From Candidatus Cryptobacteroides equifaecalis (GTDB taxonomy: Bacteria > Bacteroidota > Bacteroidia > Bacteroidales > UBA932), in contig JAGHUW010000148.1 in assembly GCA_018064625.1 (NCBI GenBank), forward strand, positions 1 to 35,688: DNA of 35,688 nucleotides. The letters are read 5' to 3'. Position 1 is the first letter of the stretch; each line of letters starts with the position of its first letter. The position numbers were made by a program, and so were the translations under genes. Below, piece by piece: positions 3,946-24,894 of this stretch. The notes under the pieces were generated by a model that was not told the DNA's origin, did not search any database, and saw only the letters and a list, made by a program, of their open reading frames with translations.

Positions 3946-4119
3946 ATGAAAGTAATCCTTACCAAACACGGGGAGATAAACAAGATAGCCGCAATGCTTG
4001 GCGTGTCGAGGCTTGCGGTCAGGAACGCCCTCAAGTTCCGCTTCAACACCGAACTGTGCCAGCGCATACGCAAGGTTGCGCTTGAGCGAGGCGGAAAGGT
4101 CACCGAGTACTGCGACTGA
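3946..4119 (+). CDS. Small HTH DNA-binding protein, Ner-like position
   Basis: MKVILTKHGEINKIAAMLGVSRLAVRNALKFRFNTEL...; first rightward early gene opposite repressor. Confidence 0.65.
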   Translation: MKVILTKHGEINKIAAMLGVSRLAVRNALKFRFNTELCQRIRKVALERGGKVTEYCD

Positions 4120-4364: not shown

Positions 4365-4465
4365 ACCCCCGTAGTTCAACGGACAGAACAGTTCCATAGG
4401 GTTACTATACTTACCATGGACAGGAAGATGGAGCAGATGCGGGTTCGAATCCCGCCGGGGGACCA
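4365..4465 (+). tRNA. tRNA-like element with about 34-nt anticodon loop
   Basis: Acceptor cccccg(4366-4371)/cggggg(4456-4461)+ACCA; T8A9; D-stem gttc/gaac; anticodon stem gttcc(4391-4395)/ggagc(4430-4434) enclosing 34 nt; T-arm gcggg-ttcgaat-cccgc. Confidence 0.55.
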
Positions 4466-4909: not shown

Positions 4910-6943
4910 ATGGAGATAATCAACGATAGAGTATGCGTCACAGCTGGCGAACTTGATGGAATCATAGGTTATGAGACAATCAAGAAACTTGCCCAGCGTG
5001 GTCAGGCGGAACGCGCCCAGCGCGGCTGCAAGGACCGTGCATCCCTGTTCTACGTTGATTCCCTCCCGTACAAGTACCGCACCGAGGTGCACAGGAGGTT
5101 TCCGGACCTTGAGTCCCGTGCGGAGAGCAGGCCTTTCACCGAGTCGGTGGAGCCGGACGGTGAGGCGTACGCCTTCTACGAGGGCTACACCTTCGCCAAC
5201 GGAAGCCATCTCACCCCGGAGAAGATAGAGGAGTACAGCAACAACGCTGCCGTGCTCAACTCGTTCCGCCGCTGGCTGGAAGTGTCGAACGGCATGAGGA
5301 GCAAGACCGGGCACAGGAAGGTAAGGAAGGGCGAGTTCTGGGCCATGGCGGCCAAGGCCGTGGAGAAGATGGCGGACACGTTCCCCAACACCCTCCCGTC
5401 CAGCGAGAGGAGGCTCCAGGAGAAGTTCAACGACTACGAGAGGGACGGCTACGTTGCGCTCATCAGCGGCAAGCACGGCAACAGCAACGCCGCCAAGGTG
5501 GAGACGGAGGCCCAGAAGGCCGCCATCAGCGCGCTGTGCGCCATACCTAACGGACTGAGCAACGCCTTCGTGGCAAGGCAGTACAACGACGTCATGAAGA
5601 GGACCGGAGGCGAGACCATCACCGCCGGCACCGTGGGGAGGCTCCGCAAGGAGAACGGCCTTGCCATTGACGCCATGCGCCACGGCAGCAGCCATTTCTC
5701 CAACACCCGCGCCATGCAGGTGTCACGCACCAGGCCTACGGCGGCCATGCTGCTGTGGTCCCTGGACGGATGGGATGCGGAGCTCTACTACCAGAAGCGC
5801 AACGCCAAAGGCGTGGTCACGTACAACAACAGGAAGGTGCTGGAGGTGGTGCTTGACGCATGCTGCGACTATCCGATAGGCTACGCAATAGGCGACCAGG
5901 AGGATTCGCAGCTCATAGCCGAGGCTCTGAGGAATGCGGCCAACCACACGAGGGAGCTGTTCGGATCGCGCTACATGACATGCCAGATCCAGAGCGACCA
6001 CTACGCATTGAAGACAATGACGCCGTACTACTCCACCGTTGCCGACAAGGTGACTCCGGCCAGGGTGCGCAACGCCAAGAGCAAGCCGGTCGAGAGATAT
6101 TTCCTTGACATCAATGAAAGATACTGCAAGACGCAGCAGAACTGGAGCGGTTACGGCATCACGGCAAAGAAGGAGCACCAGCCGAACACGGAGTACCACA
6201 ATCTCGTGAAGAAGAACTTCCCGGACGAGGAGGGAGTGATCAGGCAGATTGAAGAGATCATAGCCGTTGAGCGTGCGAGCAAGCTGGAGGAGTACATGAA
6301 GTTCTGGGAGCTCACACCTGCCGACAGGCGGCTTCCTCTTCCGGACGAACGCTTCCTGCTCAGGTTCGGCAGGAGCAGCGGCCACACCAACGTGCTTCAG
6401 GGGCAGGGAATGTGCCCAAGGATAGGCGGAGTCAGACGCCAGTACGAGTGCTTTGACATAAGCTTCAGGGACAAGGCGTACCTGCGCTGGGACATCAGAT
6501 ATGATGAGAGCGACCTGAGCCATGTCCTTGCCGTGAGCGAGGACGGCAAGTACAGGTACATGCTGGAGGAGAAGTATCTGCAGCCAATGGCCCTTGCCGA
6601 CAGGAAGGAGGGTGACGCACTGCAGCTGGAGAGGGTGCGCGACTACAACAGGGCGCTGACCGACCACACGAGCGAGATGTTCCTTCAGATCAGCGAGCAT
6701 GCCAGGCCGCTGATCAGCGGAATGGCCGCCGAGGCGCTGGAGAGCCCGGACGCACACAACGTGCTTGCCAAGGAGCTGCTGACTGACAGCCGCGGGCAGC
6801 ACAAGAGCCGCAGGGCCGGCGAAAGGCGCAGGCTCGCCGCCGCGGCAGCGGATGCGGAGGACATCCAGCCCGTTGCGGTTCCGGTGGTTGTTGAGAACGC
6901 TCCTGCAGGAGAGAACAGGGTGAACACGTTCGACCTTTATTGA
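4910..6943 (+). CDS. Mu-type transposase A (DDE, rve core)
   Basis: LLWSLDGWDAELYYQKR...VLEVVLDACCDYPIGYAIGDQED core followed by MuA C-terminal-like region; immediately followed by a B-like ATPase. Confidence 0.88.
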   Translation: MEIINDRVCVTAGELDGIIGYETIKKLAQRGQAERAQRGCKDRASLFYVDSLPYKYRTEVHRRFPDLESRAESRPFTESVEPDGEAYAFYEGYTFANGSHLTPEKIEEYSNNAAVLNSFRRWLEVSNGMRSKTGHRKVRKGEFWAMAAKAVEKMADTFPNTLPSSERRLQEKFNDYERDGYVALISGKHGNSNAAKVETEAQKAAISALCAIPNGLSNAFVARQYNDVMKRTGGETITAGTVGRLRKENGLAIDAMRHGSSHFSNTRAMQVSRTRPTAAMLLWSLDGWDAELYYQKRNAKGVVTYNNRKVLEVVLDACCDYPIGYAIGDQEDSQLIAEALRNAANHTRELFGSRYMTCQIQSDHYALKTMTPYYSTVADKVTPARVRNAKSKPVERYFLDINERYCKTQQNWSGYGITAKKEHQPNTEYHNLVKKNFPDEEGVIRQIEEIIAVERASKLEEYMKFWELTPADRRLPLPDERFLLRFGRSSGHTNVLQGQGMCPRIGGVRRQYECFDISFRDKAYLRWDIRYDESDLSHVLAVSEDGKYRYMLEEKYLQPMALADRKEGDALQLERVRDYNRALTDHTSEMFLQISEHARPLISGMAAEALESPDAHNVLAKELLTDSRGQHKSRRAGERRRLAAAAADAEDIQPVAVPVVVENAPAGENRVNTFDLY

Positions 6944-6984: not shown

Positions 6985-7842
6985 ATGAAAAAATCAGAAA
7001 AACAGGCGATAGCCGACAACCTCAGGACGTTCTGCGCCATCAAGGGGTCCCAGAACGCAGCGGCGCGCTCCATCAGCGGTGTGAGCAGCGCAACCATTTC
7101 ACAGATCCTCACCGGGCAGTGGGACCTGATCAGCGACGAGATGTGGCGCAGCGTTGCGTCGCAGACCGGATATGACAGGCACGGGTGGAACGTGGTGAGG
7201 ACCCGGGGCTTCCAGCGCATAAGCGAGATACTTGCGGACGCAAAGGACAAGTCGCTGGTGATGGCCCTGACGGGCGAGGCCGGATGCGGCAAGAGCGAGA
7301 GCATAAAGGTCTTCGCCAGGAACAACAGGAACGTCTACCACGTGGTCTGCCAGGAGTACTGGAACAGGAGGAACTTCATGACCGAGATGCTTGCGCAGCT
7401 GTCCATATCGAGCGCCGGCTGCACCGTGAGCGAGATGATGACGGACATAATATCGGCGATAAAGAAGAGGGAGAGGCCTCTGATCATCCTTGACGAGGCC
7501 GACAAGCTCAGCGACCAGGTGCTGTATTTCTTCATTTCCCTGTACAATTCGCTTGAGGATGACTGCGGCATCATACTGTGCGCCACCAACTACCTGGAGA
7601 AGCGCATAGCAAAGGGCGTGAGGATAAACCGCAAGGGATACAACGAGATCTTCTCGCGCATCGGACGCAAGTTCATCCCGATAGAGCAGGTGAACGGCGA
7701 CGACGTGGAGGCGGTCTGCAGGGCCAACGGCATCACCGATGACGGCGTGATAGATGAGATAATAGAGAACTGCGACTATGATCTGCGCAGGGTGCGCAGG
7801 CTTGTGCACGCGGCCATCAAGCGCATGGAGGCAAGGTCATGA
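6985..7842 (+). CDS. Transposition protein B-like AAA ATPase
   Basis: N-terminal HTH; Walker A LTGEAGCGKSES; Walker B PLIILDEADKLSD. Confidence 0.88.
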   Translation: MKKSEKQAIADNLRTFCAIKGSQNAAARSISGVSSATISQILTGQWDLISDEMWRSVASQTGYDRHGWNVVRTRGFQRISEILADAKDKSLVMALTGEAGCGKSESIKVFARNNRNVYHVVCQEYWNRRNFMTEMLAQLSISSAGCTVSEMMTDIISAIKKRERPLIILDEADKLSDQVLYFFISLYNSLEDDCGIILCATNYLEKRIAKGVRINRKGYNEIFSRIGRKFIPIEQVNGDDVEAVCRANGITDDGVIDEIIENCDYDLRRVRRLVHAAIKRMEARS

Positions 7843-11545: not shown

Positions 11546-11576
11546 GATATGGAGAAAGATAACAGGCTTGGGAGTT

Positions 11577-12719
11577 ATGACTAAAGAAAGACAGATAATG
11601 CTCGCAAACTTCATGGAAAGAAGATTCCTTGGCGCAGCTAACGCCAATGCGTCCGCAATGCATTATGATATGTCCTTCCCTGAGCTCTTGCGCTATCTGA
11701 ACGAGGCGGAGACGTTGGGCATGAAAAGTTACAAGGCATATTTTGTGAGCCACGGTGCAGAGATCCTTATGAAGTCAAAGCCACATGAACAGCAGAGCAA
11801 GGCACTGATATGCGATTTCCTTTCAGCAAACAACCTGATAAAGTTGAGGAAACGCAGCTCGCAAAAGCAATGCGGCCAACCTGTAGTCAAGCTGGAGAGG
11901 CTGAACGATGCCGAAGTGAAAAAACTCAATACGTTCCTTGTATGGCTGCAGAATCACTATGACTATTCACAGCACTCATTGCAATCCTACATGTATTCAC
12001 TGGCAGACTTTTTCAGCTATTTCCAGAATTTCAGTGAGGCGAATGTCAGAGCTTATATCAACGACATGGAGGCAAACAGAAAATATAAGCCTTCCACCGT
12101 TGCATTGCGAATGACTGCCTTGAAGATGTACGCGCAGTCCTTGGGAAAGGCCATATCCATCAAGAGGAGAAAGATGTCGCGAAATCTTAACACCGAGAAT
12201 GTGCCGTCTGAAAGGGAGTACAGAAAGCTGCTTGATTACTTGAGAAATAGAAGTATTAAGGATTATCTCATTGTTAGAGTTTTGGCGACAACTGGTGCCA
12301 GGCACTCAGAGTTGCTGATGATGAGGTGGGAAGACATTCTCAAGGGTGAGTTGGTGCTGAAAGGCAAAGGTGCTAAGTTCAGGCGTTTCTTCTTCACCAG
12401 AGAGTTGATTCAGGAGGTTCAGGCTTCACAATTACATGGATATATAGAGGCTAGCCGGTTTTCGCCCGGAGGAGTTCGATCAGACAGGTGCCTGGGGGAG
12501 CACATGAAACAATGGGCGGACGCCTGCGGAATTGACAGGAGCAAGTTGCACCCTCACGCTTTCCGCCATTTTTTCGCCAAAATGTATCTCAAGAGCAACA
12601 AGGATGTTGTTCAGCTCGCTGAATTGCTAGGACATGAGAGTATCGATACAACAAGAATATATTTACAAAAGACAAAAGATGAACAACAAAGAGACTTTAA
12701 TAAGACAGTTGCTTGGTAA
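11577..12719 (+). CDS. Tyrosine-type site-specific recombinase
   Basis: TGARHSELL, HPHAFRHFFAKMYL, LGHESIDTTRIYL catalytic motifs. Confidence 0.88.
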   Translation: MTKERQIMLANFMERRFLGAANANASAMHYDMSFPELLRYLNEAETLGMKSYKAYFVSHGAEILMKSKPHEQQSKALICDFLSANNLIKLRKRSSQKQCGQPVVKLERLNDAEVKKLNTFLVWLQNHYDYSQHSLQSYMYSLADFFSYFQNFSEANVRAYINDMEANRKYKPSTVALRMTALKMYAQSLGKAISIKRRKMSRNLNTENVPSEREYRKLLDYLRNRSIKDYLIVRVLATTGARHSELLMMRWEDILKGELVLKGKGAKFRRFFFTRELIQEVQASQLHGYIEASRFSPGGVRSDRCLGEHMKQWADACGIDRSKLHPHAFRHFFAKMYLKSNKDVVQLAELLGHESIDTTRIYLQKTKDEQQRDFNKTVAW

Positions 12720-13692
12720 CATTGAATCCCTGAAGGACACTGCCAAGTTATTCGATGATGAAACCTTGTCGATATATACTGAGACCGGGCACGTTGACTG
12801 TGATTTTCTTACAAGGTTTCTGGAAACATTATCAATGCTCGCAGATGTTCAGGTATATTTTCAGAAAAGATTGAACAAATTTCTGGGAATAACTGATGAG
12901 CCTGTGAACAGGAAGGCTCTTAAAAAAACATCAGGCATAAAGATGACACCTGAGGAAGTTTTCAGAGCGTGCAGATTCGAGGATAATATAGTACATCTTC
13001 CTGACATCCAGCTTGAGAAAAAGACTTACGAAGAAGTCAAGAACCGCATAGAACAAGCAGGTGGCTCCTGGACTGGCGGCAAGGTGCAGGGATTCACATT
13101 CCCGTTCAACGCTGAGAGAGTGTGGAGCATCCTCAAGACCGGGGGAAAATGCAATCTTCAGCAGGAATTCCAGTTCTTCGAGACTCCTGATGAAATTGCG
13201 GACTGGCTTGTTTCTCTTGCCGGAGAAATCATGGAAACAGACAGAGTTCTTGAACCATCAGCCGGTCGTGGTTCCTTAATAAGGGCGATCGGGCGGCAAT
13301 GCCCTGGTAAATCGGTTGATTGTTATGAGCTCATGCCTGAGAATCAAGAACTGCTTGCCCAAATTAATACGGCAAATATCATCGGAAACGACTTCATGCT
13401 TGAATGCCAGGGCGAATATGACAAGATAATTGCGAATCCGCCTTTTTCCGGCAATCAGGATATCAAACATGTCAGACGAATGTATGAGCTGCTTGCTGAT
13501 GGTGGCACGCTGGCGGCCATCACATCAAGGCACTGGATTTTTGGGGAGGAGTCAGTTTGTTCTGAATTCAGAACATGGCTTGATTCTGTGAATGGGAACA
13601 GGTATGATATAGAGCAGGGAGCCTTCAAAAATTCAGGTACTCAGATAGGTACAGCGGCTGTTGTTGTAACAAAAAAGAAGAAACAGCCATGA
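12679..13692 (+). CDS. N6-adenine-type DNA methyltransferase
   Basis: VLEPSAGRGSLIRAI SAM motif and NPPF catalytic motif; starts 41 nt inside the recombinase gene. Confidence 0.8.
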   Translation: MNNKETLIRQLLGNIESLKDTAKLFDDETLSIYTETGHVDCDFLTRFLETLSMLADVQVYFQKRLNKFLGITDEPVNRKALKKTSGIKMTPEEVFRACRFEDNIVHLPDIQLEKKTYEEVKNRIEQAGGSWTGGKVQGFTFPFNAERVWSILKTGGKCNLQQEFQFFETPDEIADWLVSLAGEIMETDRVLEPSAGRGSLIRAIGRQCPGKSVDCYELMPENQELLAQINTANIIGNDFMLECQGEYDKIIANPPFSGNQDIKHVRRMYELLADGGTLAAITSRHWIFGEESVCSEFRTWLDSVNGNRYDIEQGAFKNSGTQIGTAAVVVTKKKKQP

Positions 13693-15457: not shown

Positions 15458-15961
15458 ATGAAAACACTACTGTTTCTGTCATTTCTGACATTCGTCGCCG
15501 GACTTGCAAGGTTCATGCAAGAGTACGGCATTGTTGAATCATATTCCCGCTACGGCCTCAACTGTGAGAGGTCCAGGATGAACAGGAATGCAAACTGGTG
15601 GAGTGTGAGCACCATCGCAAGTGCAATACTGCTGATTCCGGTATGCCTGGAGATTGGCGAGGGGAGCCTGCTGCAGTGCATCTGCTTCATCACACCGCTC
15701 ACGCTGCTGGTGATAGGCTTCACTCCGGATTTTGAAAAGGATCATACGACATACGTTGTCCATCATGTTGCAGGCTATTTATGTGGAGCTCTGACCGTGG
15801 TTCTGGCCGTGTTCGTGTTCTGCAACTGGCTTGCGTTGATGCTTGCCATTGTTACCATGGTAACGATTGGTCTGGTAACACGCAGCATCAGGAAATGCTA
15901 TTGCCTGTGGCTCGAGCTCAGCATGTACATGTATGTTTACATAACGCTTCTGATGGCATGA
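15458..15961 (+). CDS. Multi-TM membrane protein
   Basis: 167 aa with several hydrophobic helices. Confidence 0.55.
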   Translation: MKTLLFLSFLTFVAGLARFMQEYGIVESYSRYGLNCERSRMNRNANWWSVSTIASAILLIPVCLEIGEGSLLQCICFITPLTLLVIGFTPDFEKDHTTYVVHHVAGYLCGALTVVLAVFVFCNWLALMLAIVTMVTIGLVTRSIRKCYCLWLELSMYMYVYITLLMA

Positions 15962-16327: not shown

Positions 16328-16365
16328 CGGCTGCTGTCTGGTAACAGGCGGCAGCCGTTTCATTT
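16328..16365. terminator. Strong hairpin terminator at convergence of early (+) and head (-) operons
   Basis: CGGCTGCTGTCTG-GTAA-CAGGCGGCAGCCG: 13-bp stem (2 G-U) with GTAA tetraloop, then tttcattt on + strand. Confidence 0.7.
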
Positions 16366-16953
16366 CAGGTCCAGGACCTTCATCACTTCGGTTTCGATTA
16401 TTGTCCTTGCGGACTGCGTAAGATCCCCGGACTCTCCCATGAACTGGCGTCTGGGTATGCTGGCCCTTACCGTGAGCGACGTCTTCTTCGTGAGGGCGAG
16501 ACCTTTCCACATTTCGGCCTCCTTGGAGTCACCGCCCTGCTTTTTCCTGCCCCCTCCGGATTTGTAGTACATGGCCCATGCGAATCGGCGCATCTTCTGT
16601 GACACCTTGGGGTGTGTGGTCACGGTGCCTCCCTCGTTGTGTATCCCGGCATAGACGATGTTGGAGAATATGGTTACCGAACCCCGTCCGGGCGTGTATC
16701 CTATGGAATTGTACAGCACCTTGCGGCTGGACAGCAGCGGTCCTCTCCTGGAGTCGGCGCCGTTGCCTAGCAGCTGTCTCCGGGTCTTCTGCCATGCGTG
16801 CAGGCCTCCGTCCTGGAACCCTCCCTTGCGGAAGTTCTCCTGAAACAGCGACTTCGCCCTGGCTCCTATCTTTATGGGGAGCGTGCGGTTCATCAGCCTC
16901 TCGAACTCCGGGCCGATACGTTTGAGGTGGTCGAAGAACTCCTTTTCCGTCAT
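16360..16953 (-). CDS. Mu gpG-like virion morphogenesis protein
   Basis: IGARAKSLFQENFRKGGFQDGGLHAWQKTRR...IHNEGGTVTTHPKVSQKMRRFAWAMYYK. Confidence 0.75.
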   Translation of the reverse strand: MTEKEFFDHLKRIGPEFERLMNRTLPIKIGARAKSLFQENFRKGGFQDGGLHAWQKTRRQLLGNGADSRRGPLLSSRKVLYNSIGYTPGRGSVTIFSNIVYAGIHNEGGTVTTHPKVSQKMRRFAWAMYYKSGGGRKKQGGDSKEAEMWKGLALTKKTSLTVRASIPRRQFMGESGDLTQSARTIIETEVMKVLDLK

Positions 16954-17222
16954 TTTCTTCCTGCCTGATAAAGGTTCTCCTGAAGGAGGAATCCGAGGAG
17001 GTACCAGATGCGGTCTTCAATCTTCCTGAGACAGATTTCAAGGCCGATCTTTTCGTCATAGGCTGACGGATCCACGCAGGTGGTGGACTCGCGGAGGGTG
17101 AAGCCGTTCTTCATCCGGACTGTCACGCAGCACACCGGCTTGTCGAACTCCATCTCGGTGCGGCACACGACATCCTGCATGTTCTCGGCGACCTGTTCCT
17201 TTGTTACAGAAATTTGTGGCAT
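16950..17222 (-). CDS. Phage Gp49/66-like protein
   Basis: VCCVTVRMKNGFTLRESTTCVDPSAYDEKIGLEICLRKIEDRIWYLLGFLLQE. Confidence 0.65.
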   Translation of the reverse strand: MPQISVTKEQVAENMQDVVCRTEMEFDKPVCCVTVRMKNGFTLRESTTCVDPSAYDEKIGLEICLRKIEDRIWYLLGFLLQENLYQAGRK

Positions 17223-17248
17223 AAGTGCTTGGATTTAAAAATTGTTTG

Positions 17249-17346
17249 TATATTTGCAGTGATTCCTTTTATGGAAGTGAGCGTCCCGCAAGGGTCGCAC
17301 AGCTTGTCCGGCCTCAGAGTCTTCTCTGGGGCCGCCCCATTTTTAT
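17249..17346 (+). ncRNA. Candidate small structured RNA with -7-like element and terminator
   Basis: TATATTTGCAGTG (same 13-mer as early promoter 3887-3899); hairpin gcgtccc-gcaa-gggtcgc; hairpin ggcctcagag-tctt-ctctggggcc then gccccATTTTTAT. Confidence 0.4.
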
Positions 17347-18647
17347 ATGGTGTATATATTATCTTCTCGCCCTGAGAAATAATACAATATGTGTTTGCCT
17401 TCCATTTTGTATTTTCTGAGTTTGCTATATACATCCTTGTTTTCTTCCTCAAATTCAATCAGCACCAGTTCCGCTTTCTGGTCTCTTAGTGCGTGATCAA
17501 CATAATGGTCAAGGTTGTTGACACTGCGCGTCTTTTTCAAATCTGCAGGTTTCCCATCACAAAGAACATCATACAATCCTTCACGCTCTCGCAGATGAAC
17601 CATTCTGTGTCCTGCGTTGGCAAAGTTTGCACACATAGTGTGCTCCTTAAGGTACTTTTCCCATTCGTTGCCGGTCTTTTTTGCTGGTATACGAGTGCTT
17701 TCAGTGACCAGGTATCCGTCTCCTCTCCTGAACTCCTGTATCCAGCCCTCCCCGAAATATTCATATTTTTCCGGTATGCCGGATATCTCAACCTTGTTTG
17801 ACTGAAGAATTTTTTCAATGTACTTGCAGTTGCCGCAGTCCTTCACCTTGTTGGTGGGCGCGGCGGACTGCTGTCTGCCGTAGAACGGACAGCTCTGGCA
17901 GTCGTCCGGGAAATACGGGTGCGTATCTGAAAACAGCCTGCCGTCCTTGCCGGGGTTGTTGTCAAGGCCCGGGGCAGCCCGGTAACCTGCAGTGGGCGAA
18001 GGTGTCACCGGATCGTCCGTCGCCTCCAGCGAGCACTGGCATCCCCACCTGTCGCCCGGGCGGTGTGCACTCCAGAACGGGTGGTCAACCGGCAGCACGG
18101 TGTTCCACAGGGACATGTGCACGGCCTCCGGTGTGGCCGCCGTTGACGGAACCCACCTGAGGTTGGGCAGGACGTCCTTCTCCCTCTCGAACCTCTGCCA
18201 GTCGGCCGCCAGCGAGGCCCTCTTCACCGCCGTGTCGTACTCGGTCCTGAGCCATCTGCCGCACTGGTGCGATGTGATATCCTTTATGTCTTCCTTGAAG
18301 CGCGCGAATGTCTTGAGGTTGCCCTCGTCGTCAAGCAGCCTCGATGCGATGTCCTGCTGCATGCGGTGCGCCTTGAACGCACTGAACACCTCATTGCTGC
18401 GGACCACCCTCATCCTGAACTCTGGCGTGAGCTCCTCCGCATCCCCGAACCCTTTGGCGGCGGCCAGGTCGAACGTGTCCGCGAAGCCCCTGAACAGTTC
18501 CGGATGAATCTCAGTGTAGGGGTTGATCCGTTTGGAGTATATATCCTTGAGCGCCTTTTGAACGGCGTTTGAAAGGTCTATGGGAGTGGCGGCCACATTG
18601 ACCGGCATGAATGAATCGGGACCGTAATACAGGTCATTCATCACCAT
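17343..18647 (-). CDS. MuF (SPP1 gp7-like) head morphogenesis protein with CdiA-like C-terminal toxin-like module
   Basis: MuF core (HMSLWNTVLPVDHPFWSAHRPGDRWGCQCSLEAT...); C-terminal GYLVTESTRIPAKKTGNEWEKYLKEHTMCANFANAGHRMVHLREREGLYDVLCDGKPADLKKTRSVNNLDHYVDHALRDQKAELVLIEFEE. Confidence 0.78.
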   Translation of the reverse strand: MVMNDLYYGPDSFMPVNVAATPIDLSNAVQKALKDIYSKRINPYTEIHPELFRGFADTFDLAAAKGFGDAEELTPEFRMRVVRSNEVFSAFKAHRMQQDIASRLLDDEGNLKTFARFKEDIKDITSHQCGRWLRTEYDTAVKRASLAADWQRFEREKDVLPNLRWVPSTAATPEAVHMSLWNTVLPVDHPFWSAHRPGDRWGCQCSLEATDDPVTPSPTAGYRAAPGLDNNPGKDGRLFSDTHPYFPDDCQSCPFYGRQQSAAPTNKVKDCGNCKYIEKILQSNKVEISGIPEKYEYFGEGWIQEFRRGDGYLVTESTRIPAKKTGNEWEKYLKEHTMCANFANAGHRMVHLREREGLYDVLCDGKPADLKKTRSVNNLDHYVDHALRDQKAELVLIEFEEENKDVYSKLRKYKMEGKHILYYFSGREDNIYTI

Positions 18648-19954
18648 TCTGAAGCCCCGTCTCCCGCCGGGGCCTCCCCGAAAAAACGTCTCGCCCTGTT
18701 CTGCGGGCTGTCCTGTGTTCCGCGCAGCGTCTCCAGCTGCCTCTGCCTGCGCTCGTTCTCCATGTCCTTGAGGGCCTTGTAATCGTCCGGCTTCTCTATG
18801 CCCAGCTGCTCGTACATGTAGTCGTCGGATATCGGGAGCCCCATGTCCAGGGCCTTCCTGAACAGGTCGGCCTTCTCGGCCGCCGACATCCTTTCCGGCT
18901 CCACGAAGACGAACTCGCCTCCGGACGTGTCCATGCCCAGGTTGCGGAATATGTCGGCCATCTCGTAGTTCAGCACGTTGAGCACGAACACCCTGTCATC
19001 GGCGGCCAGCTCCTCCTCCACCTCCCTGTGCACGGTTCCGAGAGCCTGCGTTCCGGTGTCCGAGGCTTCCGTGGTCAGCGTGTTGCACAGTATGGCCTTG
19101 GACAGCTCGGCGTTGCACCGCTCCACCAGCCTGTCGTACACGTCTGCGCTTCCGGACTTGTTGCCGGACTCCTGGAACCTGAGGCTGCTGCCCTCGGGAT
19201 GTATGTACACACCGTTGCTTCCAAGGGACTGGGCGTCCTCCATGGTGCGTCTTCTGGCCTCGTCATCGGCCGCATCGTATATGTACTCCCTTATCGGCAT
19301 GCCGAACACCTCGGAGTACTCGGACCAGTCGCCCATCGTGCCGGTCTTGTATATGACGTACGGGGCGCAGCGGGCCAGTGCGCCCAGCGGTTCCGGCCCC
19401 TCTATGAGAAGGAGGTTGCCGTATTCGTCGAACGGTATGCCGAGCACGTCGCTCTGCCTGCGGCGTATGAGGCGCAGCTGCGGGTCCACATGCTTGCGGG
19501 GCACCATGGTGTAGTCGATCCAGCCCTTTTCGTTGATGAAGAACTGCACGAGGGTGAGACCCCAGAACTTAGCGTCCAGCACGTCGCCTATGAAGCGGTA
19601 GAACCATGGGGACCTGATGTTGTCATTGATCCTGTCGTCCGGCACGCCGCGCCTCCTGAACTCTATAGGCGAGCCCAGTATGGCGGCCTTCCTCTTCTGA
19701 ATGACCGAGCCCAGGTGCGGATCCATGAGAATGTTGGAGTAGATGTCGTACAGCCTGGTCCTTCTGGTGTAGTCAACGTTCTCCGCACCGGACACCGCCG
19801 CCTTGTAGTCCCCTATGTCGATACCGAACCTCGCCGGCTGCTGCAGTATGATGGTTGCCCCCGGACGGGATATCTGTCCTCCGGCGGTGATGACCGGCTC
19901 CCTTGTCGTTTGAGCCTTGTCCTTTGTTCTGTTGAAGAAAGTAAGCAGTTTCAT
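18641..19954 (-). CDS. Phage portal protein (DUF935, Mu gp29-like)
   Basis: TRRTRLYDIYSNILMDPHLGSVIQKRKAAILGSPIEFRR... Confidence 0.85.
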   Translation of the reverse strand: MKLLTFFNRTKDKAQTTREPVITAGGQISRPGATIILQQPARFGIDIGDYKAAVSGAENVDYTRRTRLYDIYSNILMDPHLGSVIQKRKAAILGSPIEFRRRGVPDDRINDNIRSPWFYRFIGDVLDAKFWGLTLVQFFINEKGWIDYTMVPRKHVDPQLRLIRRRQSDVLGIPFDEYGNLLLIEGPEPLGALARCAPYVIYKTGTMGDWSEYSEVFGMPIREYIYDAADDEARRRTMEDAQSLGSNGVYIHPEGSSLRFQESGNKSGSADVYDRLVERCNAELSKAILCNTLTTEASDTGTQALGTVHREVEEELAADDRVFVLNVLNYEMADIFRNLGMDTSGGEFVFVEPERMSAAEKADLFRKALDMGLPISDDYMYEQLGIEKPDDYKALKDMENERRQRQLETLRGTQDSPQNRARRFFGEAPAGDGASEW

Positions 19955-23676: not shown

Positions 23677-24894
23677 ATGGGACTGAACATTCAGAATTCA
23701 AACTACAACGGTGAGGTGCTTGAGCAGCTGCTCACTCTCGCCGCAACAGGCAACGAGCTCGTCGAGAAGGGGCTCATCCGTGTCGAGCCTAACATCGGCT
23801 ACAAATTCAGCATTCCGCGTCTCAAGAGCGGAACCATGCTTCAGAAAAGAAAGGAGCAGCCTAGCGACTCCGATTCCAAGGGCGATTTCGATTACTCCGA
23901 GAGGGTTCTCAAGCCTGAGGAGTTCATGGCTTTCACCACATTCAACCCGCGTTCGTTCGAGAGGGTATGGCGCAAATGGCAGCCCAAGGGGCCGCTCGTG
24001 TTCGCACAGCTCCCTGCAGAGGCCCAGAACGCCCTCCTGGCTGAACTGGCCAAGCAGGTGAAGTTCGAGCTCGGCGACCATTTCATCAACGGCGTGTACG
24101 AGGAGGGAACGGATGACGACAAGCTCTTCAACGGCATCATCTACAGAATGGAGCATGCGGAGAACAAGATTGTGGTGAACACGGACCAGACCACCATGAT
24201 AGGGAAGCTCAAGGCCCTCAAGGCGCGCATCCCTCAGACCATGAGAAGCAATCCGGACCTGTGCATCATCATGAGCGTGACAGACTTCGACCAGTACGAC
24301 GATGAGCTCTCGGCACAGCAGAGCAAGGGTGCGGACTATACCGACATGAACCCTGAAAGGTTCAAGGGCATAGCCATCTCGCCTCTTTCCCTGTGGCCTG
24401 ACGGCCTTATCGTGGCCACAATCGCCTCACCTGAGGTCACATCAAACCTCTGGGCCGGCGTTGACTTCCTTGATGACGAGAACGTCATCCAGATTGACAA
24501 GCTCACCAATGCCGGGGAGAAGTACTTCTTCAAGATGCTTCTCAAGGCCGACACCTGCATAGCGTTCGACGAGGAGGTCGTATGGCTTGACCACAGGGAC
24601 TATGAAGGACCTGTAATCACAGGCGCCGAGCTCATCGACGATTTCGCCGCAACATCCGGCAGCAAGCAGAGGACATACGCCACAAGCAACGGCGAGCCTG
24701 TCACAGCGCAGAGCAATGCGGACTGGATCACAGCCACCGTGGGCTCGGACGGTCACAAGGTGACATTCGCGGTGACTGCATACGCACATGCCGAGTCAGG
24801 TGACGACCCTAGGGTGGGCACCGTGACACTGGCCATTGCCGGCACAAGCGCCACCAAGACCGTGACCATCAAGCAGGCCATGGCCGAGGAATAA
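23677..24894 (+). CDS. Major capsid protein with C-terminal BACON-like Ig-fold domain
   Basis: Position after protease/scaffold; C-terminal ADWITATVGSDGHKVTFAVTAYAHAESGDDPRVGTVTLAIAGTSATKTVTIKQA. Confidence 0.8.
   Translation: MGLNIQNSNYNGEVLEQLLTLAATGNELVEKGLIRVEPNIGYKFSIPRLKSGTMLQKRKEQPSDSDSKGDFDYSERVLKPEEFMAFTTFNPRSFERVWRKWQPKGPLVFAQLPAEAQNALLAELAKQVKFELGDHFINGVYEEGTDDDKLFNGIIYRMEHAENKIVVNTDQTTMIGKLKALKARIPQTMRSNPDLCIIMSVTDFDQYDDELSAQQSKGADYTDMNPERFKGIAISPLSLWPDGLIVATIASPEVTSNLWAGVDFLDDENVIQIDKLTNAGEKYFFKMLLKADTCIAFDEEVVWLDHRDYEGPVITGAELIDDFAATSGSKQRTYATSNGEPVTAQSNADWITATVGSDGHKVTFAVTAYAHAESGDDPRVGTVTLAIAGTSATKTVTIKQAMAEE

Follow-up and report, generated by a model that had tools for sequence, protein, structure and literature searches.

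What protects a bacterium from a phage-borne polymorphic toxin when no immunity protein is encoded beside it? The question is raised by a MuF head protein gene (17343-18647, minus strand, 434 amino acids) of a Mu-like phage, found in a stretch of 35,688 nucleotides of Candidatus Cryptobacteroides equifaecalis (contig JAGHUW010000148.1 of assembly GCA_018064625.1), hereafter called the window. To our knowledge, known polymorphic toxins come with protein immunity. For the MuF polymorphic toxins of temperate phages, small protein immunity genes follow the toxin in 89.4% of cases (Jamet 2017, PMC5576092), and for Bxa of Bacteroides stercoris, the protein immunity genes are Bsi and BAH (PMC11699363). 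An earlier, sequence-only reading of the window had proposed that the MuF protein ends in a CdiA-like nuclease tip, and that its immunity factor is missing, elsewhere, or not a protein. We found that the spacer following the toxin stop codon (17223-17342) holds, on the opposite strand, a gene for a predicted small structured RNA. The locus probably encodes a MuF polymorphic toxin of the PD-(D/E)xK, CdiA_C kind, with this convergent structured RNA as its immunity factor; from the evidence presented below, we infer that this RNA is transcribed and that it neutralises a toxic tip.

The exchangeable tip of the MuF protein

The MuF gene contains exactly the peptide singled out by that reading, inside the 167 C-terminal residues that form the tip. 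Its core was found in 36 of the 299 genomes of the host family, and the closest named relatives by this core are Hankyphage-type phages of Bacteroides, with around 49% identity over residues 1-245. The identity ends at residue 245-248, none being found beyond, so that the core does stop near CGNCKYIEKIL, as had been proposed. The PF04233 (Phage_Mu_F) match covers residues 117-207 (E=2.8e-7), and the G+C content, 60-67% in the core, is only 40-47% in the tip (last 500 bases), as expected for an exchanged module. Among 98 loci with the window's MuF core, we counted 17 C-terminal types, one of these being the absence of any tip; the others include papain-fold toxin 1 (PF15644), LPD3, several CdiA_C variants and PBECR-like tips, this last label expressing a resemblance to published descriptions with no Pfam match. 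The C-terminus is thus extremely polymorphic across related phages, and the tip is not a capsid domain common to all MuF relatives. In turn, the window's tip type sits on Mu-type cores (in the window and in L003; loci are numbered with L) and on another MuF core (e.g., in L017 and L018), and it is also encoded as stand-alone open reading frames (ORFs) of around 160 amino acids. Judged from these sequences, the tip is a swappable module.

Scans of genome and viral contigs yielded 59 tip loci, most of the loci studied here coming from metagenomes. The tip or its relatives (31-46% identity) are encoded in 12 of the 299 host-family genomes, the window's own included; these relatives came from related genomes, direct matches of the window tip being absent from phage records, plasmids and IMG/VR. 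On its own, the window tip matched nothing in Pfam or NCBIfam, and nothing convincingly in the PDB. Across 49 aligned tips (A3), E61, K67, E68, D93 and K104 are invariant and position 102 is D or E, and the E..D..(D/E)xK order is complete in the window tip (E328, E335, D360, D369, K371). The predicted catalytic residues are kept, and the invariant E, K, E, D and K of 49 relatives place the tip module far beyond chance. PF18451 (CdiA_C) is matched by 38 of the 49 tip homologues at E<=0.001, and the best PDB match of the tip profile is 4g6v, the CdiA-CT of B. pseudomallei 1026b, a weak, profile-to-sequence match (E=0.019) to a type of CdiA-CT described as a PD-(D/E)XK toxin (PMC9086364). The AlphaFold2 model of the tip is alpha/beta and confident, with a mean predicted local distance difference test score (pLDDT) of 85.9 and a predicted template modelling score (pTM) of 0.80. 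These data support, at family level, a CdiA_C-like module with predicted nuclease activity, and the call made earlier by eye is supported at that level.

The same tip is also met in other settings. The stand-alone tips of L034, L039, L046 and L063 (locus ~5300-6450) start with MGGRG or MAKSSGG and lie near a conserved upstream gene; they form a second, non-MuF carrier route, where the RNA is present too. In L055, L059, L062 and L072, the tip terminates very long proteins (859-963 amino acids); in two of these, L062 and L072, it seems by eye to be preceded by a papain-like stretch, suggesting two warheads. Outside any complete MuF gene, L040 (1-1030) has two modules of tip and RNA in tandem and L026 (6400-6800) a duplication of the tip end with its RNA; these modules resemble the orphan toxin/immunity cassettes of contact-dependent inhibition (CDI) loci.

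The slot behind the toxin gene

No small immunity ORF lies downstream of the tip in the window, where the next genes are the gp49/66 gene, structural as had been stated, and then the virion morphogenesis gene. Clustering of the neighbours of tip loci returned structural and unrelated genes only, with no recurrent small ORF. The gp49/66 gene itself was considered as immunity factor and ruled out: it is missing from the relative L003 and from others, so it is no dedicated partner. For proteins, the claimed absence of an obvious immunity gene is therefore borne out, none lying next to the toxin gene in the window and none recurring among its relatives. A conventional protein immunity gene located elsewhere in the phage or the host would make the spacer RNA incidental and would count against RNA immunity. 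We regard it as highly improbable: among the loci with the window's tip type no neighbour gene is conserved, and the RNA is the sole conserved neighbour.

Mu-type loci typically have 70-145 nt of non-coding DNA between the tip and the next structural gene; the MuF gene of L086, devoid of a C-terminal tip, overlaps this structural gene. Papain-type (PF15644) tips have, in the same slot, a convergent ORF of 78-99 amino acids that ends near the MuF stop codon, with 38-60% identity among the 82-amino-acid versions, and type-12 tips (n=2, JAB-like by eye) are followed, 9-14 nt past the stop, by the start of a sense ORF of 66-69 amino acids. One slot thus carries protein partners for some tips and RNA for others. 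Among the three possibilities that the sequence-only reading had left for the immunity factor, the data favour the last, not a protein, the slot being occupied by a conserved, toxin-type-specific RNA gene.

The promoter of this gene is recognised by the Bacteroidota -7 box, TAnnTTTG. We found it in antisense orientation in 81 of 83 MuF loci with CdiA_C-like, LPD3, PBECR-like or unclassified tips (the count labelled 'nuclease-like' in our script, that is, all tip types but the papain-like ones, type 12 and none), its median distance from the stop codon being 78 nt, and in sense orientation in 4 of the same 83. Dinucleotide-shuffled spacers give 11.9 +/- 3.1 antisense boxes, and of 305 ends of other genes taken from these phages, 5 carry one, which rules out a chance promoter in an AT-rich spacer. 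No antisense promoter lies beside papain-type tips (0/7) or JAB-like, type-12 tips (0/2); the box is present in one of the six MuF genes without C-terminal tip, inside the overlapping downstream gene. Among the promoter elements of the RNA genes, only the -7 box is strict.

An RNA matched to the toxin type

The folding of the window RNA has a z-score of -4.55, with 0 of 200 shuffles as good. A covariance model (R1), whose training set contained neither the window nor L003, recovers the RNAs of both, each at the 3' end of the tip and on the opposite strand; in the window, it matches 17277-17343 on the plus strand (E=0.0018). In the core stem of 29 aligned RNAs (A11, window included), 95.2% of the pairs are standard and 23 cells are changed on both sides, a score reached by 0 of 500 shuffles, and pairing falls to 26-36% when the partner is shifted by one column. 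In the RNAs of the window's tip type, the A opposite the third stem position is nearly invariant. The three best R1 matches among 393 genomes of the order all abut the window's tip type on the opposite strand, L108 being newly found, and at E<=0.1 R1 leaves the RNA spacers that accompany other tip types unmatched. Searches against Rfam returned no family for the window RNA or for those of 20 and 11 other loci. We also considered whether the RNA codes for a peptide, and rejected this: a 34-codon ATG frame can be read by eye in the window, frames of at least 25 codons exist in only 12 of 42 relatives, and no peptide is shared.

The RNA gene, conserved and covarying, is linked specifically to the toxin type and not to the phage core. 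Indeed, over all tip types, RNA similarity tracks tip similarity with the core controlled for (partial Mantel r 0.64, 0/2000 permutations), whereas the reverse test, RNA against core similarity, gives a partial Mantel of 0.08. The nearest RNA neighbour is of the same tip type in 56 of 77 cases, against 7.6 expected, and some motifs, e.g., GATAACTTCAAG or GATTGnAnTTC, are confined to one tip type. These results bear on another reading, in which the RNA would serve the late operon as a cis-regulatory or antisense element (a terminator plus an antisense promoter damping MuF), unrelated to the activity of the toxin. The RNA gene, convergent to the MuF transcript, overlaps the stop codon of MuF, which suits such a role. 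On the other hand, the RNA is absent from MuF genes with no C-terminal tip or with papain-type tips on the same core, its sequence follows the tip type rather than the core, its stems covary, its overlap with the coding region is small, and it is also found beside stand-alone tips outside the late-operon context; a purely regulatory element is, in our opinion, quite improbable.

Several observations weigh against RNA immunity in this locus or in its family. The window tip itself has no PF18451 match, and the window RNA is, like the tip, a divergent member of its family (18 bits); the TTG in the -33 region of the window lies 17 nt from the -7 box, a poor spacing compared with the usual 19-21. 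The strict TAnnTTTG is missing in four close loci (L017, L018, L050 and L051), and the terminator T-run, clear in 33 of 42 RNAs of the window's tip type, is clear in only 39 of 83 over all types. R1 fails on the shorter-loop RNAs of L140, L143 and L152, and its weaker matches in genomes, which are not near toxins, exceed the nominal false-positive rate and are probably due to chance. A second R1 match in the window (3978-4031, minus strand, E=0.015), far from any tip, was likewise taken as chance.

The RNAs of other tip types give indications of what they may do. Those of PBECR-like tips (L079/L216, L217, L218, L220 and L084) are cloverleafs in which a D-like arm and a T-arm accompany an acceptor-like stem of 12 bp; the anticodon arm is shortened in several, and a T-loop-like UUCGA(A/G)U is present in four of the five. 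Pairing in this cloverleaf reaches 96.6%, and 12 changes are double (0/500 shuffles). ARAGORN labels one of these RNAs as tRNA-Leu, and the Rfam tRNA model gives no match. LPD3 tips have an RNA with a hairpin of 5 bp and a 7-nt loop, anticodon-arm-like by eye. This suggests that the tRNA-like RNAs and the LPD3 hairpins are decoys of tRNase substrates. The RNA could also be a partner of the tip rather than its antidote, i.e., a guide, a cofactor or a packaging tag needed by the nuclease, for instance bound to MuF and co-injected, and an activating partner would show toxin-type specificity as well. However, protein-type tips carry small protein genes in the same slot, as immunity genes do, the tRNA-like RNAs look like substrate mimics of a tRNase, and a separate promoter on the opposite strand suits the protection of a lysogen better than packaging; a partner role therefore seems unlikely. 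As for immunity, we consider it reasonably likely that phage-delivered polymorphic toxins of Bacteroidota use RNA for this purpose, at least a dozen tip types having each their own structured RNA, some of these being tRNA-mimic decoys, and the protease-type tips having protein genes in the slot.

Phage setting, known systems and meaning

The structural operon of the phage is ordered terminase, gp36, portal, MuF, gp49/66 and virion morphogenesis, and the features of the locus are collected in Table 1. Elsewhere in the window, the phage encodes a MuB-like AAA ATPase plus a tyrosine recombinase (PF00589), at 6985-7842 and 11568-12719 (plus strand). A tRNA gene lies in its early region (4365-4463, plus strand; RF00005, 41 bits). 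An HNH_3 endonuclease gene (PF13392; 13689-14327, plus strand) adjoins a methyltransferase-like gene (12634-13692), and a predicted small membrane protein (15458-15961, plus strand) has a sub-threshold match to a SLATT domain (E=0.0018). The product in the major-capsid position (23677-24894, plus strand) carries a BACON domain (PF13004) at its C-terminus, like that of Hankyphage.

Table 1. Features of the MuF locus and of the convergent RNA gene, in window coordinates.
Feature	Position	Strand	Basis
Virion morphogenesis / tail completion gene	16360..16953	-	PF05069 E=8.2e-6, phrog_26
Phage_gp49_66 family gene, next in operon after MuF	16950..17222	-	PF13876 E=1.5e-17
TTG, possible -33 element	17229..17231	+	sequence; TTG in -33 region of 70/81 relatives
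Bacteroidota -7 box TATATTTG (TAnnTTTG) of convergent RNA gene	17249..17256	+	sequence; kept in relatives
Predicted small structured RNA, candidate RNA immunity factor	17263..17345 (ends approximate)	+	fold z-score, covariance model R1
Conserved core hairpin TGAGCG...CGCACA	17278..17301	+	alignment A11
Intrinsic terminator	17309..17344	+	T-run 17340-17344 overlaps complement of MuF stop codon (17343-17345)
CdiA_C-like PD-(D/E)xK toxin-like tip, residues 268-434	17346..17846	-	relatives 31-46% identical; 49-row alignment A3
Predicted active-site stretch E328, K334/E335, D360, D369-L-K371	17535..17670	-	invariant or near-invariant A3 columns
MuF core, residues 1-267	17847..18647	-	PF04233 Phage_Mu_F
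Portal protein (Portal_Mu)	18641..19954	-	PF06074 E=5.1e-78; immediately precedes MuF, as in MuF toxin loci

With the MuF polymorphic toxins, the locus shares a MuF domain whose gene, in the packaging module, comes right after that of the portal (PF04233, PF06074), a variable C-terminal domain on a conserved core, and a C-terminal domain common with CDI systems (CdiA_C in 38/49 relatives, the window copy alone having no match). It differs by the convergent structured RNA gene in the slot, where a protein ORF is typical (89.4%) and not universal. The Hankyphage p00 (BK010646) has a homologous MuF core and the same operon order, but its tip is papain-like and a 99-amino-acid protein gene, not an RNA, stands in the convergent slot. 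The CdiA-CT toxins of the PD-(D/E)XK kind (PF18451; 4g6v) share with the tip the Pfam family of its relatives, the E..D..(D/E)xK order and the position at the C-terminus of a polymorphic protein; here, however, the module is borne by a phage head protein instead of CdiA, with no CdiI-type gene, and the K of the DxK motif, invariant in our tips, is missing from 4g6v in the stretch that aligns.

Type III toxin-antitoxin systems (ToxIN) likewise associate a protein nuclease, here predicted, with an adjacent structured RNA matching the toxin type. In ToxIN, the RNA consists of tandem repeats located upstream and co-directional, whereas here it is a single unit, downstream and convergent, with its own promoter; moreover, the toxin is PD-(D/E)xK-like, has CdiA_C relatives and is part of a virion protein, and is not of the ToxN/AbiF type. 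Unlike type I (antisense) toxin-antitoxin systems, there is no long pairing with the mRNA, the terminator of the RNA, where seen, being at the toxin stop codon. The locus thus resembles both the MuF polymorphic toxins and the RNA-neutralised (type III) toxins, and has the full defining features of neither. In the literature searched, subscription journals and preprints being outside the search, we found no earlier report of RNA immunity for polymorphic toxins.

How could such an immunity operate? Most likely, the tip would be produced within MuF towards the end of the lytic cycle, be packaged and enter the next cell with the phage DNA, as may be deduced from published work (PMC5512222, PMC5576092). 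The RNA would be transcribed from its own housekeeping-type promoter in the lysogen while the late operon is silent, and by this way the lysogen would survive both incoming virions and its own induction. The RNA probably binds the toxin, either as an active-site inhibitor or as a substrate mimic. It is conceivable, though we lean away from it, that the tip is an injected early effector directed against host RNA or host defence rather than an inter-bacterial weapon, the RNA guarding the lysogen and the phage-producing cell. Such an early role is assigned to MuF-fused enzyme domains in the literature on polyvalent proteins (PMC5512222), and the RNA would be needed either way; our data do not separate both roles, and the rapid swapping of tips fits either.

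If RNA immunity is confirmed, an RNA swapping together with its toxin would represent a new form of self-protection. It would explain the apparent lack of an immunity gene for many MuF toxins in gut Bacteroidota, and would offer a ready set of RNA inhibitors, including natural tRNA mimics, hinting at the target of each toxin.
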